A stretch of DNA of 49,726 nt from the NCBI GenBank assembly GCA_902584215.1, contig CACHYW010000005.1:1-49726 (forward strand), read 5' to 3'. Both the position numbers and the translations under genes were made by a program. The stretch's first letter is position 1, and every line of letters begins with the position of its first letter. Origin of the DNA: an uncultured Pelagibacteraceae bacterium. Lineage in GTDB: Bacteria > Pseudomonadota > Alphaproteobacteria > Pelagibacterales > AG-422-B15. Shown in pieces: positions 3,534-26,263 of this stretch. The notes beneath the pieces were generated by a model, which saw only the letters and a list, made by a program, of their open reading frames with translations, was not told where the DNA came from and did no database searches.

Positions 3534-5369
3534 TTATTCAACAATGTGGTATAAAGGTGCTTTTTCAAGAGTAAATTCTCCACTTTTAGGATCTCGTCTT
3601 GATGTAGTGAGACAATGCCAATTATCATCATCAAGCTTCATGTGATCACCTCGGTAATAATAACCGGGCCATCTAGTTTCTTTTCTAAAAAGAGTATGAT
3701 GAGTAACGCATTGTGACGTCATTAAACGGTGTTTGAGCTCCCAAGCTCTCATAAGCTGATGATAATCTTCAGCACCAATATGCTCCAAGTCTTCTTCAAG
3801 CATATGAAGTAATTCAAGACCTCTGTTGAGAAGATTTTCATTAGTCATATAATTAACCCCAACACCACCTACATATTCGTCCATAATTTTTTGTAACCTT
3901 TGGAGTCCTTGTATTGGCAATAAATAACTAGGCGATACAGTTCCTGCTGTAATTTCATTGCGTCCAACTTTATAGTTTTCAAGAGGTTTATAAATAACTT
4001 CCTTTAAATCTTCATATTGTTTCTCGTTGATTAATATTTCTTCATTTTTTAAGTCCATAATGTACTTAACTGCAGCTTTAGCTGCTAAACGTCCTTCAGT
4101 AAATGAGCCTGATGAAAACTTATGAGCACTGCCACCTACAGTATCTCCTGCTCCAAACAAACCATCGACACTCATCATTCGGTTGTATCCCCAAAAATAT
4201 TCAGATGGAGATAAATCTTCGGGACCACTTACCCACGCGCCAGAACATGTTGCGTGAGAACCCATGACGTATGGTTCAGATGTGGTTAATTCTGGGTTAG
4301 TATATTTAGGGTCTATATTTTGAGATGCCCAAACAACAGCTTGTCCTACCGTCATGCCTAGGAAATTTTCCCAACCAATAGTTTCTAAGTGAGGATCTTG
4401 AAACGCTTCTGTTGTAACCATATGAATTGGTCCTCCACCAGCCTTAACTTCCTCTATGAATGCATGATTTCTTAAACACGTAGGCACAGGAGTGTGGTCA
4501 ATATACTCTCCAACTAACTTCTTAGTATCCTCATACCACTTTTGCTCATAGTTCTCACCATTGCCGTTTTGAGTGTATGTTTTTAAATGTAAAAAGTAAG
4601 CTCCTACAGGACCATATCCATCTTTGAATCTTGTGAGGACAATTCTGTTTTCCATTTGTGTCATCTTAGCTCCAGCAGCAATAGGTAATGCGTATGCTGA
4701 TCCATTACTCCATGGCGCATACCATGTTCTGCCCATACCCTCACCTACAGCTCTTGGTTTAAAGATATGTGAAGCTCCACCTGCAGCAACAATCACAGCT
4801 TTAGCCTTAAATACGTGATAGTTTCCAGTTCTCATGTTGAAGCCTACGGCTCCACCTACACGGTTCTCTTTTCCTTCATCCATTAGGAGATGGGTAATCA
4901 TGATACGGTTATAAATCTTATCAGCTGACTTCTTCGCAGCTTCGGCAACTATAGGCTTATAGCTTTCTCCGTGAATCATAACCTGCCATTTGCCTTCACG
5001 TTGATATCTTCCTGTCTTCTTATCTCTCATGATAGGAAGACCCCATTCGTCAAACATATGAACAGTTGAGTCAACATGTCTTGCCATGTCGTATGCTAAA
5101 TCTTCTCTGACCAATCCCATGAGGTCATTTCTTGCGTACCGAACATGGTCTTCTGGTTGATTTTCATCCCATTGCATGCCCATGTAACAATTGATTGCAT
5201 ATAAGCCTTGAGCAACAGCACCACTTCTGTCTATGTTAGCCTTCTCAACGCAGACAATTTTTAAATCTCTTCCCCAGTGCCTTGATTCAAAGGTAGCGCC
5301 TGTACCTGCCATACCTCCACCAATAATAAGGATATCGCAATCCTCATGAATAGTTTGAATTTTAGCCAT
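3534..5369 (-). CDS. aprA: Adenylylsulfate (APS) reductase, alpha subunit
   Basis: This 611-residue flavoprotein has an N-terminal FAD-binding fingerprint (DILIIGGGMAGTGATFE) and long stretches typical of AprA, such as RYARNDLMGLVREDLAYD, MGSHATCSGAWVSGPEDLSP and LFGAGDTVGGSAHKFSSGS. Length is normal. The enzyme interconverts sulfite plus AMP and APS. In aerobic marine bacteria without dissimilatory sulfite reductase it is expected to run in the sulfite-oxidising direction. It is preceded 3 bases upstream by aprB in the order aprM-aprB-aprA. A local sulfite source is the taurine route encoded at 21356-24473. Family assignment is strong; direction is inferred. Confidence 0.96.
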   Translation of the reverse strand: MAKIQTIHEDCDILIIGGGMAGTGATFESRHWGRDLKIVCVEKANIDRSGAVAQGLYAINCYMGMQWDENQPEDHVRYARNDLMGLVREDLAYDMARHVDSTVHMFDEWGLPIMRDKKTGRYQREGKWQVMIHGESYKPIVAEAAKKSADKIYNRIMITHLLMDEGKENRVGGAVGFNMRTGNYHVFKAKAVIVAAGGASHIFKPRAVGEGMGRTWYAPWSNGSAYALPIAAGAKMTQMENRIVLTRFKDGYGPVGAYFLHLKTYTQNGNGENYEQKWYEDTKKLVGEYIDHTPVPTCLRNHAFIEEVKAGGGPIHMVTTEAFQDPHLETIGWENFLGMTVGQAVVWASQNIDPKYTNPELTTSEPYVMGSHATCSGAWVSGPEDLSPSEYFWGYNRMMSVDGLFGAGDTVGGSAHKFSSGSFTEGRLAAKAAVKYIMDLKNEEILINEKQYEDLKEVIYKPLENYKVGRNEITAGTVSPSYLLPIQGLQRLQKIMDEYVGGVGVNYMTNENLLNRGLELLHMLEEDLEHIGAEDYHQLMRAWELKHRLMTSQCVTHHTLFRKETRWPGYYYRGDHMKLDDDNWHCLTTSRRDPKSGEFTLEKAPLYHIVE

Positions 5370-5372
5370 GGA

Positions 5373-5843
5373 TTAGTAGTAAACGCCTTCTTTAAATTTT
5401 TCTTTATCTATTTCAGGCAGTCCAGTATCTATATTTAATCCAGTTGGCTCTGAATATAGAAGCTGTGAATTTAACTCATCGTTTGTTGGAGCTTTTTCCT
5501 CAGCTAGTTTTGGAATATGTTTACCCCATGGTTTTGTTGTAATTGGTGAAACAAAATTCTTTTCATGACCATTTCTAAATTTGATTCTCCAAGAAATAGT
5601 TCCTTTCTCTTCTTCCCTTAAAACTCTTACTTTATGATGCATAGGTGCAAAGTCTGCATAGCCCCTAACATCGATAGCATTTTGCGGACAGGCTTTCACA
5701 CAAGAATAACATTCCCAACACATATTTGGCTCGATATTAACGGCACGTCTTGTTTCTTTATCAATGTGCATGATATCTGATGGACAAATATCCACGCAAT
5801 GACCACAACCATCACATCTTGTCATGTATACAAATGTTGACAT
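5373..5843 (-). CDS. aprB: Adenylylsulfate (APS) reductase, beta (iron-sulfur) subunit
   Basis: This 156-residue ferredoxin-like subunit has two [4Fe-4S] motifs, CDGCGHCVDICP (about residues 10-21) and CWECYSCVKACP (about 42-53), followed by the AprB tail with an IDVRGYADF segment and a C-terminal arm. It carries electrons between the AprA flavin and a membrane partner. The start at 5843 has a good ribosome site (AGAGGA) on the minus strand. It lies 3 bases upstream of aprA and 40 bases downstream of aprM, so the three form one operon. Confidence 0.96.
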   Translation of the reverse strand: MSTFVYMTRCDGCGHCVDICPSDIMHIDKETRRAVNIEPNMCWECYSCVKACPQNAIDVRGYADFAPMHHKVRVLREEEKGTISWRIKFRNGHEKNFVSPITTKPWGKHIPKLAEEKAPTNDELNSQLLYSEPTGLNIDTGLPEIDKEKFKEGVYY

Positions 5844-5883: not shown

Positions 5884-6678
5884 TTAATAATGCCTAGGTG
5901 ATTCTCGCTTTATTCCAAGCCCAAATTGCTTAGGAGCATCAGCTGGGCCCGGCAAATCGTCACGGTAGCCATCTACTTCTGATAGATTTTTCTGAATCGC
6001 AGCGCCAGGCTTATAAAACATATGAGCAAATTTCGACCAGTATACTCCTCCAAATAATACTATATTAGATAGAGCGTAAAGAACCAGAAACAAGCTATCA
6101 AATATAGGAATACTTGCGTACTGGGTATAAGACCAAGCAAGCCCAAAAGTTGCAGCAGCCAATAATGATAAAACAAACAAGTCTGCTCGAATAATTCTTT
6201 TCCATGGATTTGCCTCTGCCGAAACATCAACTCTCAAGAAAAACCAAAACCAGTAACCGCCCAAACAAGTCATTAGTGCGCCTACATGCCATAAAGCAGA
6301 AACTTGATATGGCGCTTCTTTAGCAACTCCAGTGTAAGCAAATATTAAAACAGCTGAACATATCCAAAATAAGATTGACCCATACATGCCAAGCAAATGT
6401 GCTGCCCTTCTTTGTCCACGACCAAGTTCAGATGTAGTTAAAATATCACTTGCAATAGTTTTCGAAATAACAGCTGCTTTCTCTCCTGCGCTAACTTTTT
6501 TTGTTGCCGACTCAGTCGCCTTTTTGTAATTGATAAAGAAGTATTTGGCATTTTTTTTGTGTGCCATGTCTAGGATCGTTCCCAAGGCAACCATAGCGAC
6601 CATTAGTATTACAAAAGCCTGCAATGCTTCAACGGGCATGAAGCTTATTAATTCTGCAAAAGGATTCGTATATAGCAT
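5884..6678 (-). CDS. aprM: AprM-type membrane anchor of APS reductase
   Basis: This integral membrane protein has about five hydrophobic segments (ALQAFVILMVAMVALGTIL; LLGMYGSILFWICSAVLIF; ALWHVGALMTCLGGYWFWF; LFVLSLLAAATFGLAWSY; SLFLVLYALSNIVLFGGVYW). Histidines at or near membrane edges (AAHLL, LWHVG, FAHMFY) could bind heme b, as in NarI/DsrM-like proteins. AprM is known next to aprBA in sulfur oxidisers and in SAR11-type bacteria, where it is proposed to replace QmoABC and pass electrons to quinone. I prefer the ATG at 6678 (264 residues) over the TTG at 6687 used by the ORF track. First gene of aprM-aprB-aprA-unknown. Confidence 0.85.
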   Translation of the reverse strand: MLYTNPFAELISFMPVEALQAFVILMVAMVALGTILDMAHKKNAKYFFINYKKATESATKKVSAGEKAAVISKTIASDILTTSELGRGQRRAAHLLGMYGSILFWICSAVLIFAYTGVAKEAPYQVSALWHVGALMTCLGGYWFWFFLRVDVSAEANPWKRIIRADLFVLSLLAAATFGLAWSYTQYASIPIFDSLFLVLYALSNIVLFGGVYWSKFAHMFYKPGAAIQKNLSEVDGYRDDLPGPADAPKQFGLGIKRESPRHY

Positions 6679-6732
6679 AAGTATCAAAGCAATTATATCA
6701 GAGTATATAAATAATACCTATATTTTATAGTT

Positions 6733-7668
6733 TCAAGCCATCTTACTTTCTTCTTGAATTAATTGATAAAATTGAATGATATTTTTAGAAGTTTTAATAT
6801 CTAATTTTAGCTGATTGATGCCATTGCTAATCGCTTCACTATTGAATTCAAGAATCGATTTTTTATAGCTTTCGCGATTTTTTATACGTTTATGATATTC
6901 TTTTAAATTTTCATGGTTGCCTATTAATAAATCTATAATTTGCAGTTCCTCCACACGATGAAATAAAACCATCCATGTTATGTCAGCAATGCTAAATTTT
7001 TCACCTCCAATCCAACTTCTATTATTGAGATGATGGTTTAATTCGTCAAAATGTACTTTTAAACATTTAAAAGCTTTAATAGCTGCCCTCTGATTGGGTG
7101 CATTTTTTCCAAATGCTCTATTACCCATTAATTTAAAAATCACGAAGAAAAATGCTCTAAATTTTGATGGATGTTTAAAATATTTTATAAATTTAAAGAT
7201 ACTAACTTTTTTTAACATAGCTGCAAAAAGGGGCTGCATCATAATTGAAATACAGTTTCCTGCATAATCTTTAATTCCGTTCATGGGATCATCGCCCACT
7301 AAAGATCCTTTTTTATTCCACTTCTCTACTATCTCATCATTGTAAAGAACCCCTGGCTTAAGTTCAGATACATATTTAATTTGCTCATGTGACTCATATA
7401 TCGGATAATTTTCATGCAGCAAGACTGGTACTGTTGCAGTGGGATTTATCTTTAGGAAATCATTTGATAAATTTTCACAATCTTTTGTTTCAATAAGATG
7501 TATATGCCTAGAATGATAATTAATGCTCAATTCTTCTAAACAAACCCTAACTTTCCTTGAGCAAATAGAAAACTCATTGTGAAACAGAACCCATTCATGA
7601 TTAAAGTTTGAAACTTTATAATCCTGTTTACCTATAAGAGTATCTTTATTGGGATTCTTTTTTTTCAT
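6733..7668 (-). CDS. Glutathione S-transferase family protein
   Basis: This 311-residue protein has an N-terminal extension of about 25 residues and then a thioredoxin-fold GST domain: WVLFHNEFSICSRKVRVCLEEL resembles the G-site start, NPTATVPVLLHE carries the cis-Pro, and YESHEQIKYV corresponds to the E-S motif. A C-terminal helical GST domain follows, with GGEKFSIADITWM matching the conserved N-capping SxAD motif. It is longer than typical GSTs (200-240), with an insertion around residues 110-170. The Ser/Cys at the start (SICSRK) may be catalytic. It overlaps the upstream carboxymuconolactone-decarboxylase-like gene by 23 bases. A role in detoxification or ring-cleavage isomerisation is inferred from the neighbouring aromatic-type genes. 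Confidence 0.8.
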   Translation of the reverse strand: MKKKNPNKDTLIGKQDYKVSNFNHEWVLFHNEFSICSRKVRVCLEELSINYHSRHIHLIETKDCENLSNDFLKINPTATVPVLLHENYPIYESHEQIKYVSELKPGVLYNDEIVEKWNKKGSLVGDDPMNGIKDYAGNCISIMMQPLFAAMLKKVSIFKFIKYFKHPSKFRAFFFVIFKLMGNRAFGKNAPNQRAAIKAFKCLKVHFDELNHHLNNRSWIGGEKFSIADITWMVLFHRVEELQIIDLLIGNHENLKEYHKRIKNRESYKKSILEFNSEAISNGINQLKLDIKTSKNIIQFYQLIQEESKMA

Positions 7669-8020
7669 CCCATACTTTATTTAATAACTGACTAGCAGAA
7701 ACAGCAGTTGGGAATCCACTGTAATGAGCGACATGCAAAATCATTTCTTCAATCTTTTCCTTCTCAATTCCTAAATTTTGCGCTCCTCTTAGATGAGACT
7801 TTAACTCATTTTCTCTGTTTAGAGCGACAAGTACAGTTAATGTGATCATGCTTCTTTCTTTAAGGCTCAGCTTGTCAGTTCTAGACCAGATAGTTCCATA
7901 AAGCATGTCTATTATTTGTTTTAATAAACTCTTAGATACTGGGGTTTCATCCTCTTTAAGGAGATCCATCTCCTTAAGTATTTCTAAGCCTTTTTTTCGA
8001 TCTTCATCATTTAATGGCAT
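7646..8020 (-). CDS. Carboxymuconolactone decarboxylase (CMD) family protein
   Basis: This 124-residue all-helical protein has the CMD-domain pattern: an N-terminal helix, then the LSLKERSMITLTVLVALNRENELKSHLRGAQNLG core and EKIEEMILHVAHYSGFPTA. The H-x-x-G arrangement near residues 100-105 is typical of 4-carboxymuconolactone decarboxylase rather than AhpD, because the AhpD CxxC pair is absent. Length is normal. It is transcribed ahead of the GST with overlapping frames. It could be a true decarboxylase/lactonase in an aromatic pathway, or one of many CMD proteins of unknown reaction. Confidence 0.8.
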   Translation of the reverse strand: MPLNDEDRKKGLEILKEMDLLKEDETPVSKSLLKQIIDMLYGTIWSRTDKLSLKERSMITLTVLVALNRENELKSHLRGAQNLGIEKEKIEEMILHVAHYSGFPTAVSASQLLNKVWDEKKESQ

Positions 8021-8097
8021 TTAATAAAAATAACTCATAAAATATTAGTTTCAATTTATATCTTTGATTTTTTTTATACCCATTATAGGATTATTGT

Positions 8098-8409
8098 ATG
8101 AGTGAAAAAGTTTATATGCTTGTAGATATCAATATTCAAGATAAAGAAACATATCTAAATTATGAAAAAGGATTTTTTCCAATACTAAAGAAATATGGAG
8201 GTGAATTTATAACATTTGATGATAAAATTGAACATCTTGAAGGTGAAAAACCTATAGAAGGACGCACAATATTATGGACCTTCCCATCAGAAGAAGACGC
8301 TAAAGCATGGTATAACGATCCTGAATATCAGGAACTTGCAAAGATTAGACGCTCATCTGCAATTTTGAATAATTTAAGTATAATTAAAAGTCTACCAAAA
8401 AGAGGTTAG
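8098..8409 (+). CDS. DUF1330 family protein
   Basis: This 103-residue alpha/beta-barrel-like small protein has the DUF1330 layout: start MLVDINIQDKETYLNYEK, a central GGEFITFDD, GRTILWTFPSEEDAKAWYNDPEYQEL, and a C-terminal RRSSAILNNLSI. No enzymatic role is established for most members. It is a single gene divergent from the CMD gene and convergent with the flavin monooxygenase (5-base gap). It is likely part of the accessory island; function unknown. Confidence 0.75.
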   Translation: MSEKVYMLVDINIQDKETYLNYEKGFFPILKKYGGEFITFDDKIEHLEGEKPIEGRTILWTFPSEEDAKAWYNDPEYQELAKIRRSSAILNNLSIIKSLPKRG

Positions 8410-8414
8410 CGTAA

Positions 8415-10028
8415 TTAATTTGGAGTAAAGAAATCTGTTTCTTGTAAGTTTTTAATGCAAGATGAAACTATTTCATCAAGATTGTCGGTTTCAAAATTAA
8501 AAATATCAAAGACATATTTGTCAGGCCTTAGGATGACAGCATTGCATTCATACTTATCACAATAAATCTGCATATCAGAATGAGTATCTTCACAAGCAAT
8601 ATAATTGTCGTAATTCGATTGCTCATGATTGTCAGAGATATTTATAACTTTAAAATTATGTTTATTTAGAAACTTTAGATATTTATCAGAAATTTTTTTA
8701 TTGCCTTCAAAATTATTCAAAATCATACCAAAATTCTTTCCTAAAATTTTGTCAGTACTTTGAACCCTGCCATCATTAAGTTGTACACTAATTTCATTAA
8801 AGTAATATCGTTCAAGAGAGACATTTTTTATTTTTGGCATATTATGAACTCCTTGGCCGAGACGGTTTCCATTCAGAATAGGAAATACATTTTCTTTGCC
8901 TTTAAAGTAACCCTGTATCCTTAACGTAGCGTTTCGGATAAAAGCTTTAAACTTACTTTTTGCATTTATAACCCCACCCATTTTGATAGCTGCTCTTGTA
9001 ATACGTGCAACATGAGGTTTTCTTTCTGTTTCATAAGTCTCTAAAATGTTTGACTTATAATTGCCTTTTAGTACTCCATTAATTTTCCAAAGTAAGTTCT
9101 CAGCATCTCTGCATCCAGAGTTCATGCCTTGTCCCATAAAGGGAGGCATCTGGTGAGCAGCATCACCAAGAAGAAAAATATTTCCATTACTCCATCTTTC
9201 TGCAGCCGCCGCATGAAAGGAGTACACCGCAGTTCTGCTAAATTCTACTTCATTATCGCCAATCCATTGATCAATATATTTTCTAAAGACACTTTCTTTT
9301 TGTATTTCTTCAACAGTATCTCCAGGCATAAATGCAATTTCAAATCTAAAGCAATTTTCTACACCTTGAATAATCGTCGTTGGCCTAGTTGGATTACAAT
9401 ATTGAATAGCATCTATATCTGTGAAACAGTCAAAACTACTTTTAGTATATCCATCAACTACCATCCAGGACTCGTCAGCATCAAGACTATTCAATTTGAT
9501 ATTGTTAAGCTTTCTAACTGTGCTGTTTGCGCCGTCACAAGCTAAAAGATACTTGCTCGTAACTGTGAACTGCTCATTGGTATCAATATTTTTGTATGTA
9601 CAATTAATGACTCCATTTATTTCATCTACCGCTAAAAGCTCACTACCTGTTTTTATAGTATTTGTTGAGTATTTTTCTGCGTTTTCTCTATGCGCTTCAT
9701 CAAATTGTGGTTGATGAATAAACAAAATTCTATGCTGATAGTTATATATGTCAAAACCCTCCGTTGTAATTTTCATGATTGATTTTTTATTAGCGTCTTT
9801 ATTATCAACGCCTCTTATTTTTCTGGTCTTTACTTCGCTTAAGAATTCGCAGTGTGACATTGCTCGCTGGCATTCAGCATCCCATGTAATCGCTCTTGGT
9901 AAAGGGTAGGCATTTTTTTCTTTATCTAGAATCAATGCTTTGATCCCATAATACCCAAGGAGATTTGCACATGTTTCACCTACAGGACCATACCCTGCAA
10001 CAACTACATCATATTCAGTTTCAATCAC
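8415..10028 (-). CDS. FAD-dependent monooxygenase, aromatic hydroxylase (MhpA-like, group A)
   Basis: This 537-residue protein has the three hallmarks of group A flavin monooxygenases: the N-terminal GxGxxG (VVVAGYGPVGETCANLL), the DG motif (LACDGANSTVRK, about residue 165) and the GD motif (LLGDAAHQMPPFMGQGMNSG, about 285). A C-terminal thioredoxin-like domain follows, as in MhpA/phenol hydroxylases. It probably uses NAD(P)H and O2 to hydroxylate a phenolic ring. The start is GTG at 10028, 5 bases after the fumarylacetoacetase-type gene, so the two form an operon. The substrate cannot be read from sequence; the neighbouring sulfatase and VOC protein suggest an aromatic compound. Confidence 0.87.
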   Translation of the reverse strand: MIETEYDVVVAGYGPVGETCANLLGYYGIKALILDKEKNAYPLPRAITWDAECQRAMSHCEFLSEVKTRKIRGVDNKDANKKSIMKITTEGFDIYNYQHRILFIHQPQFDEAHRENAEKYSTNTIKTGSELLAVDEINGVINCTYKNIDTNEQFTVTSKYLLACDGANSTVRKLNNIKLNSLDADESWMVVDGYTKSSFDCFTDIDAIQYCNPTRPTTIIQGVENCFRFEIAFMPGDTVEEIQKESVFRKYIDQWIGDNEVEFSRTAVYSFHAAAAERWSNGNIFLLGDAAHQMPPFMGQGMNSGCRDAENLLWKINGVLKGNYKSNILETYETERKPHVARITRAAIKMGGVINAKSKFKAFIRNATLRIQGYFKGKENVFPILNGNRLGQGVHNMPKIKNVSLERYYFNEISVQLNDGRVQSTDKILGKNFGMILNNFEGNKKISDKYLKFLNKHNFKVINISDNHEQSNYDNYIACEDTHSDMQIYCDKYECNAVILRPDKYVFDIFNFETDNLDEIVSSCIKNLQETDFFTPN

Positions 10029-10033
10029 TAGAT

Positions 10034-10927
10034 TTAATATACGGGAGTATCTTCTGGCTCTTCAATAACTTTATTTTTAATAAAGCCTAATTTTTCAATC
10101 TCAATCTTTACTTCATCATCTGCTTTGAGCCAATTTCTTGTCATTACTGCTGATCCAGCTGGAGTACCTGTTGGAATTAAATCGCCTGGCTCTAAAGTAA
10201 ATGCAGTTGATAAGTATTCAACAAGAGTAAAGCAATCAAAAATCAAATCACTTGTTGATGCTGATTGTCTTAGTTCGCCATTAACATGAGTTTCGAGTTT
10301 TAAATTGTGAGGATCACCAACTTCGTCACTGGTTACTAGGTAAGGTCCAAAAGGGCAATGCGTATCCCATGATTTGCCCATGGTCATTGTCATTGGCGGT
10401 CCACGCATCTGCCAATCTCTAATTGTGACATCATTCACAACTGTGTATCCATAAATAACGTTCGCAGCACTTTCGTAAGGAACATGACGACATTTTTTTC
10501 CAATAACAAAACCTAGCTCACCTTCGTAATCTAAAAATTCTGATGCTCTTGGTCTATGTATTAAATCGAAAGGACCAACTACTGAGCTATTTTGTTTATT
10601 AAATATATTTGGATATTTTTCCTGCGCCTTGCCAATAGTCTTTGCAGCCGTTTCTGCGACTTCATCTTTATGTTCTTTATAATTCAATCCCACGGCAAGT
10701 ATCTTGCTTGGCTTAGGAATAGGCGCACACAATTCTACTTTACCTACTTCTATTTTATCTTCACCTTTTTCAATGAGGTCATTAGCTGTATCAAGCCCAT
10801 CGTTACCAAGTTCAATAAAGTCAATCATATTTTTAGGAAGAGATGATTGGGCAAAACTAATAATCAGATCATCTTTGACCGCACCGATGCTCAGATTGTT
10901 ATTATGTAAAAAAGTAACTAATTTCAT
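10034..10927 (-). CDS. Fumarylacetoacetate hydrolase (FAH) family hydrolase/hydratase
   Basis: This 297-residue protein has an N-terminal domain and then the FAH catalytic domain: AVGLNYKEHKDE, DYEGELGFVIGK with the metal-binding Glu pair, GYTVVNDVTIRDWQ with the third acidic ligand, and the C-terminal PGDLIPTGTPAGS. Enzymes of this family hydrolyse, isomerise or hydrate ring-cleavage products such as 5-carboxymethyl-2-hydroxymuconate or oxopentenoates. It is first in a two-gene operon with the flavin monooxygenase. It is consistent with the lower part of an aromatic catabolic route; the precise substrate is unknown. Confidence 0.87.
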   Translation of the reverse strand: MKLVTFLHNNNLSIGAVKDDLIISFAQSSLPKNMIDFIELGNDGLDTANDLIEKGEDKIEVGKVELCAPIPKPSKILAVGLNYKEHKDEVAETAAKTIGKAQEKYPNIFNKQNSSVVGPFDLIHRPRASEFLDYEGELGFVIGKKCRHVPYESAANVIYGYTVVNDVTIRDWQMRGPPMTMTMGKSWDTHCPFGPYLVTSDEVGDPHNLKLETHVNGELRQSASTSDLIFDCFTLVEYLSTAFTLEPGDLIPTGTPAGSAVMTRNWLKADDEVKIEIEKLGFIKNKVIEEPEDTPVY

Positions 10928-11001
10928 ATGTTTATATATATTGAATATCTAAAAGCTAGAATTGTATCAAGACAAATTATTGTATATTGTTTTTTTTCAA
11001 T
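10928..11001. promoter_or_regulatory. Divergent promoter region between FAH-monooxygenase and sulfatase operons
   Basis: This short AT-rich gap must carry the promoters of two divergent transcripts. A direct repeat ATTGTAT occurs twice, 18 bases apart (10961 and 10979), which could be regulator contacts, but no clear -35/-10 pair is evident. Divergent placement implies joint regulation of the two halves of the island. Confidence 0.35.
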
Positions 11002-12711
11002 ATGAATAAAAAAATCTCAAGACGATCTTTTATCAAACAATCTGCTGCTTCAGTGACATTAGCTGGACTAAGTTCAATCTTAATGACGCAACAAGCACCT
11101 GCTTACATAAAGGCAAAAAATTACAATATTCTTTTAATATTAAATGACCAAGAAAGGGCATGGCCATATATACCCAAGAGTATTGATTTACCAGCTAGAA
11201 GATATCTCGAGAGTATATCAACTTATTTTAATCGGTCTTACACTTCCACACCGATCTGTTCACCCGCTCGTAGTTCAGTTTATACAGGTCAACATGTTCA
11301 ATTTACTGGTGTATGGGACAATACAGTCACACCTTGGGTGCCAGGCTTGTACGACAATGTAAATACTATCGGTCATATGATGAGAAATCAAAATTATGAA
11401 ACAGGATATTTTGGTAAGTGGCATCTAACAAATATTACTGAAAGTAATGTAAATGAGAACGCTCTTGGCTATGAAGGCATGAAGCTGATGTTTAGTAAAT
11501 ATGGATTTGATAATTCTAATCAACCAGGTGAAAGAGATTTGGGGCAAGGTGGATATAAATACGATGGATTAACTGCCAGAGATGCTTCTAAGTTTATTTT
11601 AGAAAACAAAGACAATAGTAAGCCATGGTCAGCATTTATAAATTTTGTCAACCCTCATGACATTATGTTTTACAGGGCAGCGCCTGAGATTAAAGGAACT
11701 GGATTTATTGCAGCAAACCAACAGTTTGCGCCTGATGATCCTATTTATGATTTAGAACATGATTTTGAATTTCCAAAGAATTTTGGTCCAAGACAAAGTA
11801 TGGACGCAGGTGCAGAAATAGGGACTGAACTAATGAATACTCTTTATGGAGAGATATCATATAGCCGGCCAGACTTATGGAGAAAGTTTTGTAATTATTA
11901 TTTTAATTGTTTGCGTGATGTAGATAGGCGGATAATGATGCTCATAGATACTCTTCAGGAAACAGACCAGCTAGAAAATACAATTATTTTTATGATTTCA
12001 GATCATGGAGAAATGCTTGGCCAACAAGGAGCAAGAGGAAAAGTTGTAGCTTGGGAGGAATCAATCAAGGTTCCGACATTAGTATATCACCCTGACTTAA
12101 AACAACAAAAAATGTGCAATTCAATTATTTCAAATATTGATATCGTTCCTTCAATATTGGAATTTGCAGGTCTTGATAAGCTAGAAATAAAAAATAAATT
12201 TCCTGAATTAAAAGGTAACAGTTACGCTCATTTAGTTGAAAATGTAAATTATGCAAATAATCGAGATGTAGAAGGTCATTTAATACACGGGGTTCAAATC
12301 ATTCCAACTGTTTTTGAAGTCGCTGAAAAATTTAGACATACAGCTTTAGCTGAAGGATTTATTAATAAAGCTAAAGCATTTGCCTCGCAAGGCAATTTCT
12401 TACCTGACTTCAGTCTTCCTCTTAACTATAAAGGCGTAGTAGACAAAAAATATAAATTTTTAAGATTTTTCTCTCCTCGTATGAATAACATACCTCATGA
12501 CTATAATGATCTAGTCGTTAATAATTCTGATTTCCAATTATTTGATTTAGAGAATGATCCTTACGAAATGAATGATCTCTCCAAAAATGAGAATAATAGA
12601 GATTTATTAATGTTAATGAATGAAAAATGTAATAAGTTAACAGATAAAGAAATAGGCCTAGAAAATCATGTCCTTCATTTACCTGGCCCTGATTGGTTTT
12701 GGACAGCTTAA
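11002..12711 (+). CDS. Tat-exported sulfatase (formylglycine type)
   Basis: This protein of about 569 residues begins with a twin-arginine signal (KKISRRSFIKQSAASVTLAGL) ending near an AYI/AKA region, so it should be exported folded to the periplasm. The sulfatase core is clear: metal-binding ILNDQERA, the formylglycine motif CSPAR (ICSPARSSVYTGQ), GKWHL, NPHD and the C-terminal metal site SDHGEMLG. It hydrolyses a sulfate ester of unknown identity; a Cys in the motif implies maturation by an FGE-type enzyme not seen here. I use the ATG at 11002 rather than the TTG at 10987. The VOC gene follows after 3 bases, linking desulfation to an aromatic or alkyl catabolic set. Confidence 0.9.
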   Translation: MNKKISRRSFIKQSAASVTLAGLSSILMTQQAPAYIKAKNYNILLILNDQERAWPYIPKSIDLPARRYLESISTYFNRSYTSTPICSPARSSVYTGQHVQFTGVWDNTVTPWVPGLYDNVNTIGHMMRNQNYETGYFGKWHLTNITESNVNENALGYEGMKLMFSKYGFDNSNQPGERDLGQGGYKYDGLTARDASKFILENKDNSKPWSAFINFVNPHDIMFYRAAPEIKGTGFIAANQQFAPDDPIYDLEHDFEFPKNFGPRQSMDAGAEIGTELMNTLYGEISYSRPDLWRKFCNYYFNCLRDVDRRIMMLIDTLQETDQLENTIIFMISDHGEMLGQQGARGKVVAWEESIKVPTLVYHPDLKQQKMCNSIISNIDIVPSILEFAGLDKLEIKNKFPELKGNSYAHLVENVNYANNRDVEGHLIHGVQIIPTVFEVAEKFRHTALAEGFINKAKAFASQGNFLPDFSLPLNYKGVVDKKYKFLRFFSPRMNNIPHDYNDLVVNNSDFQLFDLENDPYEMNDLSKNENNRDLLMLMNEKCNKLTDKEIGLENHVLHLPGPDWFWTA

Positions 12712-12714
12712 GTT

Positions 12715-13407
12715 ATGACAAATGAAGTTATTTTAAATTTTGATTTATACAGAAAGTTTCGGTCTGAGTATTCTCCAGATAATTTTCATCATGTAGCTTT
12801 TAAGACGATGCAGTACGAAAAGATGGTCAGTTTTTACGAAAAACTTTTCGGATGTAAGCCTTTGTATAAAAGTAATGATATTGCTTTTTTAGCTTTTGAT
12901 GAAGAACACCATAGAGTAGCTATTGCCAACACTAAGCCAGGAGTTGATAAACTAAATTTTTTTGTAAAACTGATAGCACAATTTAAAGAGTGGCTTAATA
13001 GGTCTACACCATCAGCAGTTGGACTAGACCATATTTCTTATCAATTAAATCCTATAGATAAGTGGTTTGAATTTTACTTAAAAGCAAAAGAACGAGGTCT
13101 TAAACCATACTGGACTATCAATCATGGTTGGATAACTGGAATGTATTATAAAGATCCTGATGGCAATCTTATTGAAATATTTTTTGAGCACTGGAAAAAT
13201 GAAGAAGATTTTAAGCATGAGGTATCAGCTAGAGGATTTCCTGAAGAACCAGTGGGTACAAATATGGATATTGATATTCTCTATGATATGTTCAAAAAAG
13301 GTGAAAGTTTTGAAAACTTAACCAAAAAAGGAAACACAGTCCCTGAGGGAAAAAAACCCGTAGCAGGTATTCAAGCAGCAATTAATATGCGTAAAAAATT
13401 TAAATAG
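12715..13407 (+). CDS. VOC-superfamily protein, extradiol-dioxygenase-like
   Basis: This 230-residue protein carries a two-module VOC/glyoxalase fold: [24 protein letters not shown], then [19 protein letters not shown], and [14 protein letters not shown]. The His in HHVAF, the His in GLDHISY and the Glu in LIEIFFE match the 2-His-1-Glu metal triad of type I extradiol dioxygenases. A C-terminal tail of about 60 residues (FPEEPVG...) resembles those of dioxygenase relatives. Ring cleavage of a catecholic product is plausible with the monooxygenase and FAH genes nearby, but other VOC reactions are possible. It is translated from the sulfatase operon. Confidence 0.78.
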
Positions 13408-13414
13408 TATTTGT

Positions 13415-13930
13415 ATGGATCTATATGATCTGAATTCAATTCCAAGAATAGTTTTTTCTATTTTATCAATTTTATTAACGATAGGTCCAACTATTGCCGA
13501 TTTCAATAAAACTCATGCCACTCATCCCGATTGGATAGGGCATGCACGCTTTCATGTAGTCTGGCAAGTTCTTGGATTCTATCCAATCATGGTTTTGAAT
13601 TTAATTGTATTATGGATTTATATTCCTGAATTTTATTATCCATACCAGCTTTATTTTTGGCTTATTTGGTATTTTGGTTTCCTTGGAACATTTATAATAA
13701 CTATTTTCAGCATGCCTCTATTTAAGGGAACACTCTCTGATCCCGGAGGAAGAGTACCCTTCAAATATACATTTGGAAAAAAATTAAAATTACTACCTGG
13801 CAAAAATAAACACCTTCCATTTAAAATAAAAGGGCAAGTAAAAACGTATAAAGTTGATGAAAACCTTCATAACATGATACTGCCAACAATAATTGTGATT
13901 ATTACGTCTATTTACTTTATAGTTCATTAA
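13415..13930 (+). CDS. Four-helix membrane protein, possibly DUF6640-like
   Basis: This 171-residue membrane protein has about four hydrophobic segments ([72 protein letters not shown]). A conserved-looking loop [19 protein letters not shown] is rich in His/Asp/Trp after the first segment; it resembles uncharacterised DUF6640-type proteins as I recall them. No reaction is known. It lies 7 bases after the VOC gene in the sulfatase operon, so uptake or membrane-bound modification of the same substrate is possible but unproven. Confidence 0.65.
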
Positions 13931-21355: not shown

Positions 21356-22678
21356 ATGGCAAACACTACACCTACGACTAATTCACTCGAAAATTACTTT
21401 TTACCCTTCACTGCAAATAAGGATTTCAAAAAAGATCCGAGGCTTTTGGATAGAGGGGAAGGTGTATATTATTGGAACCATAAAGGTGATACGGTAATTG
21501 ATGCTTCTTCAGGATTATTTTGCGTACCTCTAGGTCATGGAAGAAAAGAAATTGCGGATGCTGTTCATCAGCAATTATTAAAATTAGATTATTCACCAAG
21601 CTTCCAGGTTTCACACTTGCCTGCTTTTACTTGCGCTGAAAAAGTTGCAAAACTATTACCTGGTGACTTAAACAATGTTTTTTTCACGATATGTGGATCA
21701 ACAGCAATAGATTCAGCTATAAAAATTGTTCAAGCATATCAGCATGCAATTGGACAAGCTCATCGAATGAAGTTTGTATCACGTGAAAGAGCTTACCACG
21801 GTGTAAATATTGGCGGCACATCTCTTAGTGGCATGATTAAAAATAGAGAAATATTTACTGCTGCAATGCCTGGCGTTATTCATTTAAGACATACCTGGTT
21901 AGATGAAAATAAGTTTACAAAAGGTCAACCAGAACATGGTGCACATTTAGCTGATGATCTTCAAAGGTTTGTTGATATGTATGGCCCAGAGTCAATTGCT
22001 GCATGCTTTGTAGAGCCTATCGCGGGATCAACGGGAACATTAATACCACCTAAGGGATACTTAGAAAAGTTAAGAGCAACATGTGATAAGCATGGCATCG
22101 TATTAATTTTTGATGAAGTTATTACAGGGTTTGGAAGAACAGGAAAGTCTTTTGGTTCAGTTAAGTATAATGTTCAACCAGATATGATCACTATGGCTAA
22201 AGCTATTACGAATGGTTCCCAGCCAATGGGAGCTGTTGGGGTTTCTGATAAAATTTATAACGCAATTGTTGATAATGGCCCTGAACACGGAGTTGAGTTT
22301 TTTCATGGCTACACATACTCAGGTCACCCCGCATGTGTTGCAGCTTCATTAGCTACATTAGATATTTATGAAAAAGAAGATATTTTTGCAAGAGCTGAAA
22401 AGATGTCACCTTATTTTTTAGATGCTGTTTTTGATGCGTTTAAAGATGTTCCGGCTGTAACAGATGTTCGGGGAGATGGAATGATGGCTGCCATCGATCT
22501 TGCAGTTGATAAAACTCCAGGGGTACGTGGATATGATGCTCAAAAGAAAACTTTTGCGAATGGAGTTCATATTAAATTTACTGGCGACAGCGGTATAATT
22601 GCACCTGCTTTGATTGCCGAAGAAAAGCACATTGACGAAATGTTACAAAAAATAAAAGAAGTAGTTGTTAAATATTAA
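21356..22678 (+). CDS. tpa: Class III aminotransferase, probable taurine:pyruvate aminotransferase
   Basis: This 440-residue PLP enzyme of aminotransferase class III has a GSTAIDSAIK phosphate-binding region, the LIFDEVITGFGRTG motif with the PLP-binding Asp, and the Schiff-base Lys in MITMAKAITNG (about residue 285). By itself the fold also covers beta-alanine:pyruvate aminotransferases. The immediate downstream xsc gene and nearby ald make taurine:pyruvate aminotransferase (taurine to sulfoacetaldehyde, pyruvate to alanine) the best reading. A good ribosome site (AAAGGA) precedes the ATG. Confidence 0.85.
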   Translation: MANTTPTTNSLENYFLPFTANKDFKKDPRLLDRGEGVYYWNHKGDTVIDASSGLFCVPLGHGRKEIADAVHQQLLKLDYSPSFQVSHLPAFTCAEKVAKLLPGDLNNVFFTICGSTAIDSAIKIVQAYQHAIGQAHRMKFVSRERAYHGVNIGGTSLSGMIKNREIFTAAMPGVIHLRHTWLDENKFTKGQPEHGAHLADDLQRFVDMYGPESIAACFVEPIAGSTGTLIPPKGYLEKLRATCDKHGIVLIFDEVITGFGRTGKSFGSVKYNVQPDMITMAKAITNGSQPMGAVGVSDKIYNAIVDNGPEHGVEFFHGYTYSGHPACVAASLATLDIYEKEDIFARAEKMSPYFLDAVFDAFKDVPAVTDVRGDGMMAAIDLAVDKTPGVRGYDAQKKTFANGVHIKFTGDSGIIAPALIAEEKHIDEMLQKIKEVVVKY

Positions 22679-22694
22679 TAGAAAAGTTTTAAAT

Positions 22695-24473
22695 ATGACT
22701 AAAATGACAACAGAAGAAGCTTTTATCAAGGTTTTACAGAAGCATGGCATACAACATGCATTTGGGATTATTGGTTCAGCGTTTATGCCTATATCTGATT
22801 TATTTCCCAAAGCCGGTATAACTTTTTGGGATGTAGCTCACGAAACTAACGGAGGCATTGTCGCTGATGGATACACTCGTGCTACAGGAAAAATGTCAAT
22901 GTGCATTGCTCAGAATGGTCCTGGTATCACAAACTTTGTGACGCCAATTAAAACAGCATACTGGAATCATACTCCTTTACTTTTAGTAACGCCTCAAGCT
23001 GCCAACAAAACAATTGGTCAAGGCGGATTTCAAGAAGTCGAGCAGATGGCTTTATTTAAAGATATGGTTTGCTATCAAGAAGAGGTGAGAGATCCTTCCA
23101 GAATAGCAGAGGTTTTAAATAGAGTAATATCAAAAGCGTTTAGGGGCTCAGCACCTGCTCAAATAAATGTACCCAGAGACATGTGGACACAAGTCATTGA
23201 TATTGAAATACCAACGATTATAAATTTTGAAAGACCAGCTGGGGGGAATGAGGCAATATTAAAAGCATCAAAGTTACTATCTAATGCTAAATTTCCTGTA
23301 ATTTTATCTGGTGCTGGCGTTGTATTAGGCGATGCTATTGAAGAATGTAAATTACTTGCTGAAAGATTGGATGCTCCCGTTGCGTGTGGATATCAACATA
23401 ATGATAGTTTTCCAGGTAATCATCGTTTAGCTGTTGGACCCTTAGGTTATAATGGATCAAAAGCAGCAATGGAATTAATTTCAAAGGCTGATGTTGTTCT
23501 TGCTTTAGGTACTAGGTTAAACCCTTTTTCTACTTTACCATGCTATGGCATAGATTATTGGCCAACAGATGCATCAGTAATTCAAGTCGATATCAATTCA
23601 GACCGTATAGGGCTTACTAAAAAGGTAAGTGTAGGCATTTGTGGAGATTCAAAGCTTGTAACACAACAATTAATAAATAACTTAGCTCTAAGCGCTGGTG
23701 ATAATGGTAGAGATGATCGAAAAGCATTAGTTCATCAAACCAAATCTTCTTGGCTGCAAACACTAAGCAGCATGGATCACGAAGATGATGATCCTGGAAC
23801 CACATGGAACGCAGACTCTAGGAAGAGAGACTCTGATAGAATGTCTCCACGAATGGCTTGGAGAGCAATCCAAGCGGCTCTGCCCAGAGAAGCAATTATT
23901 TCCTCAGATATTGGCAATAATTGTGCAATAGGAAATGCTTATCCTACTTTTGATGAAGGAAGAAAGTATCTTGCTCCGGGTCTATTTGGTCCGTGTGGAT
24001 ATGGTTTCCCCTCAGTTCTAGGCGCTAAAATTGGATGTCCTAATATTCCAGTTGTTGGATTTGCTGGCGATGGTGCATTTGGTATTAGTATGAACGAGAT
24101 GACCTCTTGTGCAAGAGAAGAATGGCCTGCCATTACCATGGTAATATTCAGAAATTATCAATGGGGTGCCGAGAAAAGAAATTCAATTCTTTGGTATAAT
24201 AATAATTTTGTTGGAACTGAATTAGATCCAGAACTAAGTTACGCAAAAGTAGCAGAAGGATGTGGCTTAAAAGGTGTCATAGTTAGAACGATGGAAGAAT
24301 TGACTCAAAACCTAAGGAAGGCCTGCGAAGATCAGGATAAAGGTATCACAACATTTATTGAAGTTATTTTGAATCAAGAATTAGGCGAGCCTTTCAGAAG
24401 AGATGCAATGAAAAAGCCTGTTGAAATTGCAGGCATTGACTCCAGTGATATGAGTCAAGAACAAATAGGCTAG
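22695..24473 (+). CDS. xsc: Sulfoacetaldehyde acetyltransferase (TPP-dependent)
   Basis: The protein has 592 residues from the ATG at 22695; the track's TTG start at 22665 lies within tpa. Xsc is a TPP enzyme converting sulfoacetaldehyde plus phosphate to acetyl phosphate and sulfite. Recognisable Xsc stretches include FGIIGSAFMPISDLFP, CIAQNGPGITNFVTP, and the TPP/Mg motif GFAGDGAFGISMNEM (about residue 455). Length is normal for Xsc. It lies 16 bases after tpa. No pta gene for acetyl phosphate conversion is in the window. Sulfite released here is a natural substrate for the AprBA operon. Confidence 0.93.
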   Translation: MTKMTTEEAFIKVLQKHGIQHAFGIIGSAFMPISDLFPKAGITFWDVAHETNGGIVADGYTRATGKMSMCIAQNGPGITNFVTPIKTAYWNHTPLLLVTPQAANKTIGQGGFQEVEQMALFKDMVCYQEEVRDPSRIAEVLNRVISKAFRGSAPAQINVPRDMWTQVIDIEIPTIINFERPAGGNEAILKASKLLSNAKFPVILSGAGVVLGDAIEECKLLAERLDAPVACGYQHNDSFPGNHRLAVGPLGYNGSKAAMELISKADVVLALGTRLNPFSTLPCYGIDYWPTDASVIQVDINSDRIGLTKKVSVGICGDSKLVTQQLINNLALSAGDNGRDDRKALVHQTKSSWLQTLSSMDHEDDDPGTTWNADSRKRDSDRMSPRMAWRAIQAALPREAIISSDIGNNCAIGNAYPTFDEGRKYLAPGLFGPCGYGFPSVLGAKIGCPNIPVVGFAGDGAFGISMNEMTSCAREEWPAITMVIFRNYQWGAEKRNSILWYNNNFVGTELDPELSYAKVAEGCGLKGVIVRTMEELTQNLRKACEDQDKGITTFIEVILNQELGEPFRRDAMKKPVEIAGIDSSDMSQEQIG

Positions 24474-25093
24474 GATTTTCTTAAAATATAAATTTTATTT
24501 TTTGCGCTGGAGTTGTGACGAGGAAGTGCAAGGAATGGCCTTGAGATATACAAAGGAGTGTATTCATTAGTTCTGTAGGATAGTTCTGTATCAAAACCTA
24601 ATTTTTTAAAAATCGTCTCAGAAATTGAAAGTATTAAGTAACCATTTTTTTTTGTAACTCTTAATAATTCTTTGATTGCACCTGGCCCTACATGACCAGC
24701 TGTAAGGACTCCTGTACAGATTAATAAATCAAACTGATTACTTTTCAATGTAGTTTTTTTATTTAATGATTGGCAAACAAGCTTCTTGAAAATTTTTTTT
24801 GATTTAGCAAGTTCTAGCATTTCTTTTGAATTATCTAAACCCGTAAGATTTTTATAATCTAATTTACTGAACTCTTCAGCTACTAATCCAGTTCCACATC
24901 CAGCGTCTAAAATATTTGCTTTTTTTGAAATTTTTATTTTCTTACTAAGAATGATCTCTTTCAATCGTTTTGGATAAGCGTATCCCCAATCAGTTAAATC
25001 CTTATCGTATTCCTTTGCCCAATTTTTATAATGCAGTTTTAGTTTTGCTGGATTCTTTTCTGTATAAACAATTTTAAGCCATTTTTTTGCCAT
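24470..25093 (-). CDS. Class I SAM-dependent methyltransferase
   Basis: This 207-residue protein has the Rossmann methyltransferase motif I (ANILDAGCGTGLVAEEF, about residues 60-76), the acidic end of strand 2 (LTGLDNSKEML) and a later motif IV-like LLICTGVLT. The N-terminus includes AKEYDKDLTDWGYAYP, as in methyltransferases of the UbiE/WBSCR27-like type. The substrate is unknown. It is transcribed opposite to the taurine genes, its 3' end overlapping the xsc stop by 4 bases. Confidence 0.82.
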   Translation of the reverse strand: MAKKWLKIVYTEKNPAKLKLHYKNWAKEYDKDLTDWGYAYPKRLKEIILSKKIKISKKANILDAGCGTGLVAEEFSKLDYKNLTGLDNSKEMLELAKSKKIFKKLVCQSLNKKTTLKSNQFDLLICTGVLTAGHVGPGAIKELLRVTKKNGYLILSISETIFKKLGFDTELSYRTNEYTPLYISRPFLALPRHNSSAKNKIYILRKS

Positions 25094-25147
25094 TAGAGAT
25101 CTTAGTCCTTTTTATATTTATACAAATAGTATAAAAATTAGTCATAT

Positions 25148-26263
25148 ATGTTAATAGGTGTTCCTAAAGAAATCAAACCTCAAGAAAATAGAGTAGGACT
25201 ATCTGCTGATAGTGTAAAGATACTTGTTTCAGAGGGCAATAAGGTAATTGTTGAAACAGGGGCAGGAATAGGCTCAGGCTTTACTGACGCTGACTACGCT
25301 TCTGCAGGTGCAAGCATTTGCAAAACTGCCAGAGAAGTTTTTGATATAAGTGAATTAATAATTAAAGTTAAAGAACCACAAAAACAAGAAGTTGAGCTTC
25401 TTAAAAAAAATCAACTATTATTTACCTATCTTCATTTAGCCGCCAATAAGGAACTTACCCTAGGGCTAATGAAATCTAGATCAACGTGTATCGCCTACGA
25501 GACTGTTACTGATGAGAATAATCGCCTACCACTACTCGCTCCGATGAGCGAAGTTGCAGGCAGAATTTCTATTCAAGCAGGAGCAAGATCATTAGAGATG
25601 ACAAACAATGGCAGAGGAGTACTTTTATCAGGTGCAACTGGAGCCCCGCCAGCAAATGTAGTTATTATTGGGTGTGGTGTAGTTGGATTTAATGCCGCAT
25701 TAATAGCGCATGGAATGAAAGCAAATGTTATTTTAATTGATCAATCTCAACAGAGGCTTGATGAACTAAAATCATTCTTTAACAATGAAGTTTCAACTGT
25801 GATTTCGACACCTGATAATATTGATGCAAATGTAAAAGATTGCGATTTATTGATAGGGGGTGTTCTTGTGCCAGGCGCGTCAGCGCCAAAACTAGTTTCG
25901 GAAAACTTAGTTTCAAAGATGAAACCAGGCTCTGCTCTTGTTGACGTAGCCATTGATCAGGGGGGATGCATTGAAACTAGCAAGCCAACAACTCATGCTG
26001 ATCCGGTGTATGTTCTGCATAATGTTGTTCATTATTGTGTTACAAATATGCCTGGATGTGTTCCTAGAACATCAACAATAAGCCTTAATCAAGCAACATT
26101 GCCATTTGTATCTGATTTAGCCAAAAATGGTCTCAATAAAGCTTTGAGTTCTAATAAAAATTTCTTAAATGGTCTAAATGTAATGGACGGAAACTGTACA
26201 CAGCAAGATGTAGCTATAGATCTTGATTTAGATTTTTGTATGCCTGAAAAGTTAATTGCTTAA
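25148..26263 (+). CDS. ald: Alanine dehydrogenase
   Basis: This 371-residue protein matches alanine dehydrogenase throughout: start MLIGVPKEIKPQENRVGL, YLHLAANKELTL, APMSEVAGRISIQAGA, the NAD-binding VVIIGCGVVGFNAA (about residue 170) and NMPGCVPRTSTISLNQATLPF near the C-terminus. It oxidises alanine to pyruvate and ammonium. Next to tpa-xsc it would regenerate the pyruvate consumed by Tpa, the known arrangement in taurine-degrading bacteria. It has its own promoter region, since the methyltransferase gene separates it from xsc. Confidence 0.94.
   Translation: MLIGVPKEIKPQENRVGLSADSVKILVSEGNKVIVETGAGIGSGFTDADYASAGASICKTAREVFDISELIIKVKEPQKQEVELLKKNQLLFTYLHLAANKELTLGLMKSRSTCIAYETVTDENNRLPLLAPMSEVAGRISIQAGARSLEMTNNGRGVLLSGATGAPPANVVIIGCGVVGFNAALIAHGMKANVILIDQSQQRLDELKSFFNNEVSTVISTPDNIDANVKDCDLLIGGVLVPGASAPKLVSENLVSKMKPGSALVDVAIDQGGCIETSKPTTHADPVYVLHNVVHYCVTNMPGCVPRTSTISLNQATLPFVSDLAKNGLNKALSSNKNFLNGLNVMDGNCTQQDVAIDLDLDFCMPEKLIA

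Follow-up and report, generated by a model that had tools for sequence, protein, structure and literature searches.

The block at positions 6733–13930 of the window (the whole 49,726-nucleotide stretch analysed, contig 5 of a 1.10 Mb genome that is 74% complete) is a true, conserved and movable accessory island. We read it, with moderate confidence, as a catabolic island that would desulfate a sulfated phenolic compound and then hydroxylate and open the ring. The block holds eight genes, each of them an intact open frame that can be clearly assigned to a family. Four lie on the reverse strand: (i) a GST-family protein with Pfam GST N and C domains (6733–7668), possibly a maleyl-to-fumaryl isomerase; (ii) a PcaC-like CMD-family protein (PF02627; 7646–8020), which travels with the GST gene and scores 80 bits against the PcaC model, below the cut-off of 155.7; (iii) an MhpA-type FAD aromatic-ring hydroxylase (PF01494; 8415–10028) that passes the subfamily cut-off of NF004829 (393.4 bits versus 390); and (iv) a FAH-family hydrolase (PF01557; 10034–10927), a putative C–C bond hydrolase whose best solved relative is HpaG/HpcE (1gtt). 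The forward strand carries (v) a DUF1330 protein (PF07045; 8098–8409), (vi) a Tat-signal sulfatase with a CSPAR motif (10987–12711) above the cut-offs of both PF00884 and the TAT signal model, (vii) a single-domain VOC protein (PF00903; 12715–13407), the candidate ring-cleaving dioxygenase, and (viii) a small membrane protein (13415–13930) with a weak, partial match to DUF6640 below cut-off. The sulfatase, VOC and membrane-protein genes diverge from the FAH and hydroxylase genes, and the genes and layout described in an earlier note on this DNA are all present. That note had listed the GST, CMD and DUF1330 genes as adjacent; all three are there, but the GST protein appears to be a pathway step rather than a bystander, and DUF1330 is rejected as a core part, most islands of 77–80% identity being without it.

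The borders of the island are real, because the relative G018 (L119; 92% complete) has the same flanks without the block: aprM adjoins the LysE-type exporter gene at a distance of 132 bases, both flanks are conserved and everything between them is missing. The genome G002 (L122), rated 100% complete, carries the block at this same site without DUF1330. In the genera g2 and g3, the same gene set, arranged differently, occupies a second chromosomal site near nad genes, where a TetR regulator and another membrane protein join it; the islands L060 and L061 at this second site also include an SDR. The sulfatase, VOC and membrane-protein genes remain neighbours in three different gene orders, and the membrane-protein gene always adjoins the VOC or the sulfatase gene. 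We considered aprABM as a part of the island and rejected it, since aprABM is retained at the empty site and the flank in genome G004 holds cysDN and a YeiH-type gene instead.

The surroundings of the island vary between relatives. A CysD-type gene takes the place that aprABM has in other relatives in L101 (10448–14996), L051, L057 and L058; in L101 it is accompanied by CysN/CysC and a YeiH-type putative sulfate exporter. In genus g4 (L104, 4320–5936; L059, 3468–5087), an acyl-CoA ligase lies between aprM and the island; it scores 773 bits against the 3-(methylthio)propionyl-CoA ligase model, a little short of the cut-off of 822. Within the window, an omega-aminotransferase, a sulfoacetaldehyde acetyltransferase (xsc) and an alanine dehydrogenase at 21356–26263, together with aprAB at 3534–5843, likely form a route from taurine to sulfite not far from the island. 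In L053, the VOC gene (about 9000) stands beside unrelated genes, and the sulfatase and hydroxylase are found on another contig, perhaps an artefact of single-cell assembly.

We surveyed 197 genomes of the order and found the hydroxylase in 42 (E ≤ 1e-100), the VOC protein in 40 (E ≤ 1e-30) and the sulfatase in 39 (E ≤ 1e-20), with all carriers of the three genes falling within one family. The sulfatase carriers are a subset of the hydroxylase carriers (39/39), and three genomes (G004, G091 and G098) have the hydroxylase without the sulfatase. Within the family, the Fisher test of co-occurrence gives p = 5e-9, a value to be read with the non-independence of relatives and the incompleteness of many genomes in mind. 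The open frames are retained in about 40 genomes and dN/dS amounts to about 0.03–0.2 in the pairs tested (six genes), indicating purifying selection; we therefore regard the island genes as functional and not as chance open reading frames. The expectation that the gene set is conserved together in related genomes is thus borne out by near-perfect co-occurrence across the 197 genomes and by its movement as a block.

The VOC protein carries the case for ring opening. Residues H26, H65, H66, H106, H137, Y144 and E154 are invariant. The window protein and ten relatives also match a sequence pattern that we take to be that of extradiol dioxygenases, in which His, His and Glu bind the metal and a His and a Tyr belong to the active site; eight of these relatives are encoded on plasmids, from soil bacteria and from other isolates. 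The dioxygenase geometry at stake in the earlier description is thereby upheld at the level of these residues. By sequence and by profile, the nearest solved protein is 9u42, deposited as an Acinetobacter homogentisate 1,2-dioxygenase. The protein does not have the two-domain architecture of catechol 2,3-dioxygenase, but consists of one domain of ~130 residues in 230 residues; single-domain VOC dioxygenases exist in the PDB, for example L-DOPA dioxygenase. The AlphaFold model is moderate (pLDDT 66), and its fold matches include fosfomycin-resistance proteins and glyoxalases as well as dioxygenases, which leaves the fold by itself indecisive.

The strongest single argument for ring opening by the module comes from genome G098 (L104). 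Its aprM–LysE site holds the hydroxylase (56% identity), the FAH enzyme (74%) and a 333-residue two-domain extradiol-like enzyme (6039–7037), and the VOC, membrane-protein, sulfatase, GST and CMD genes are all missing. A two-domain extradiol-like enzyme can therefore stand in place of the VOC protein. Profile comparison of the VOC protein with this enzyme yields just a short match of 37 residues. Judged from sequence, ring cleavage by the module is a well-supported prediction. Co-occurrence, extradiol residues and VOC replacement have strengthened the ring-opening part of the earlier reading; its sulfated-aromatic part is something that we continue to infer. SAR86 genomes (L062–L064, about 8989–9672) carry a 66–68% identical VOC gene alone, without a sulfatase or a close hydroxylase, adjoining gyrase/topoisomerase-type genes and an M48-like peptidase. 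This gene was likely acquired by horizontal transfer; its solitary occurrence counts against our reading, as it implies that the VOC protein can act outside the island set.

Whether the ring cut would be of the catechol type (meta) or of the hydroquinone type (homogentisate- or gentisate-like) is about evenly balanced. In the hydroquinone version, the hydroxylase would produce a para-diphenol, the VOC protein would cleave it, the GST protein would isomerise the maleyl to the fumaryl product and the FAH enzyme would hydrolyse the latter. This version is a sub-case of our preferred explanation, with which its probability overlaps, and we rate it as a serious possibility that falls somewhat short of probable. 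It draws on 9u42 being the best solved VOC relative and on the behaviour of the GST gene, which all complete VOC islands seen contain and which is absent along with the VOC gene in G098. Because it is retained in this way, the GST protein looks more like a pathway step, an isomerase, than a bystander. Its FSxCSRKxR stretch, invariant in nine homologues, resembles zeta-class isomerases as we know them, and the whole pattern fits a maleyl-to-fumaryl isomerisation after a hydroquinone-type cut. The model cut-offs, however, are far from reached (38.6 bits versus 171 for maiA; 18.3 versus 375 bits for fumarylacetoacetase), plasmid clusters of FAH, VOC and hydroxylase genes are without an annotated GST, and the extradiol pattern also fits catechol cleavage. 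In A. baumannii, a gene reported to encode a type I ring-cleaving dioxygenase is flanked by hmgC and hmgR, which favours the homogentisate-like version, although the authors doubted its activity (PMC7646211).

The sulfatase would supply the first step. It matches PF00884 with 146 bits (cut-off 25), and C91, R95, K144, H146, H224, D339, H340 and K352 are invariant in nine homologues; their catalytic roles we assume from what is known of the family. The ATG at 11002, where several homologues begin, is a more probable start codon than the TTG at 10987, and tatC lies in the window. Three specific models were compared: choline sulfatase TIGR03417 gives 130 bits against an equivalog cut-off of 433, and the arylsulfatase models NF010322 and NF052527 give 117 (cut-off 481) and 78 bits (cut-off 850), respectively. 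We rejected the choline sulfatase identity on this score. As neither the choline sulfatase nor the arylsulfatase models are reached, it is the context that leads us to call the sulfate ester aryl. These missed cut-offs weigh against our reading of the island, as do the islands without a sulfatase and the failure to find a known maturase. The AlphaFold model of the sulfatase has a mean pLDDT of 40, too poor for comparison of active sites.

Comparison of related islands shows that the sulfatase is an accessory of the island and dispensable in some islands, and that its alleles are replaced in place, with neighbours staying nearly identical. Between L060 and L061, the VOC and FAH proteins are 94% and 98% identical and the sulfatases 69%; between L102 and L103, the values are 87%, 88% and 70%. 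In L043 and L066, the sulfatase is 78–79% identical to that of the window, with neighbours at 95–98%. A broken mosaic sulfatase occurs in L069 (5215–6838), with 91% and then 69% identity. Allele exchange may point to selection that favours shifts in specificity while the core pathway stays constant. It can also be taken, together with the absence of the gene from some islands, the unrelated contexts in which sulfatases of ~30% relatedness sit and the scores below the arylsulfatase models, as a sign that the ring-opening module is real and the sulfatase a passenger acting on a sulfated carbohydrate or another non-aromatic ester. This explanation has to account for the hydroxylase being present in every sulfatase-bearing genome and for the adjacency of sulfatase, VOC and membrane-protein genes throughout three gene orders, and we think it unlikely.

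Maturation of the sulfatase poses a separate problem. In all 43 genomes of the genus, neither FGE (PF03781) nor an anSME (TIGR03942) above cut-off was found, one weak match to the latter reaching 30.7 bits, and FGE was likewise absent from every family genome searched. Neither enzyme was found in G002, the genome rated 100% complete, and the island sulfatase is its one PF00884 protein. The sister family f2 (L107–L112), which is without this sulfatase, has FGE-family proteins in 31 genomes; many of these are ~410 residues long with split matches and may represent another FGE-fold enzyme. The designation as a formylglycine sulfatase consequently holds for the domain, the CSPAR motif and the catalytic residues, and is less secure as to formylglycine itself, because a known maturase was not found in these genomes.

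The gap may reflect a maturase outside the known kinds, a cysteine that serves without modification, or an FGE so divergent that it escaped the search. We tentatively propose, as an idea that is rather less likely than not to hold, that the sulfatase works and is matured by a third kind of formylglycine-generating enzyme in marine bacteria that have neither FGE nor anSME. The absence of FGE from the family genomes searched and of an above-threshold anSME from the genus is also what one would see if, in vivo, the sulfatase carried an unmodified cysteine in place of formylglycine and served some other hydrolytic function or none. The CSP(A/S)R motif and the remaining catalytic residues show no variation, however, and the dN/dS of the sulfatase is about 0.03–0.1, features that fit a working sulfatase with a maturase not yet recognised, and we consider an unmodified cysteine quite improbable. 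Because the Cys-type sulfatase is conserved in a family without known maturase, the question of a third formylglycine system can be tested directly.

Taken as a route, the island would operate as follows. The Tat-exported sulfatase would strip sulfate from a sulfated phenolic compound in the periplasm, and the freed phenol would enter the cell. The MhpA-type flavoenzyme would then hydroxylate the ring, the VOC protein would open it with O2, the GST protein would, in the case of a hydroquinone-type cut, isomerise the product, and the FAH enzyme would hydrolyse a C–C bond to yield central metabolites. All of these reactions are inferred, as are their sequence, the transport step and the assumption that the sulfate ester is aromatic. 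That an aryl sulfate loses its sulfate in the periplasm is a plausible hypothesis, and no dedicated phenol importer was identified, which counts against the route. SAR11-type bacteria are usually regarded as users of small, simple molecules; a mobile sulfated-aromatic island, if true, would give them a part in the cycling of aromatic carbon and of dissolved organic sulfur.

We found no description of the island in the open-access literature searched, and compared it with several known systems. Among plasmid loci selected solely for their similar VOC gene, 8/8 have a FAH gene within ~8 kb and 6/8 a flavin hydroxylase, so that linkage of the three families is found in unrelated genomes. These clusters (in Rhodococcus, Sphingobium, Paraburkholderia and others) have the three enzyme families of the island as close neighbours, but are without an annotated sulfatase, GST or CMD protein, and their VOC and hydroxylase proteins are 24–33% and ~25% identical to those of the island. 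Plasmid sulfatases from Klebsiella, Skermanella, Acaryochloris and Paracoccus are full-length relatives of the island sulfatase at ~30% identity; anSME or FGE lies nearby in 4/5 of the plasmid sulfatase loci examined, whereas neither was found in the genome of the island. The Acinetobacter homogentisate pathway (9u42) resembles the island in having a VOC dioxygenase, the closest solved relative of the island VOC protein, together with isomerase and FAH-type partners. It differs in that identity is low, the GST and FAH proteins of the island stay below the maiA and fumarylacetoacetase cut-offs, and the island adds a flavin hydroxylase and a sulfatase. In the fde (Herbaspirillum, naringenin) and ifc (Variovorax, isoflavone) systems, a flavin monooxygenase and then a 'glyoxalase' dioxygenase act on the same ring (PMC11069340). 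By description rather than by sequence, this succession resembles the one proposed for the island. The available part of that account describes no sulfatase, and the partners it names are an alpha/beta hydrolase and cupins, not FAH and GST proteins (PMC11069340). The individual parts of the island are of known kinds, and its combination of them, together with the missing maturase, is new.
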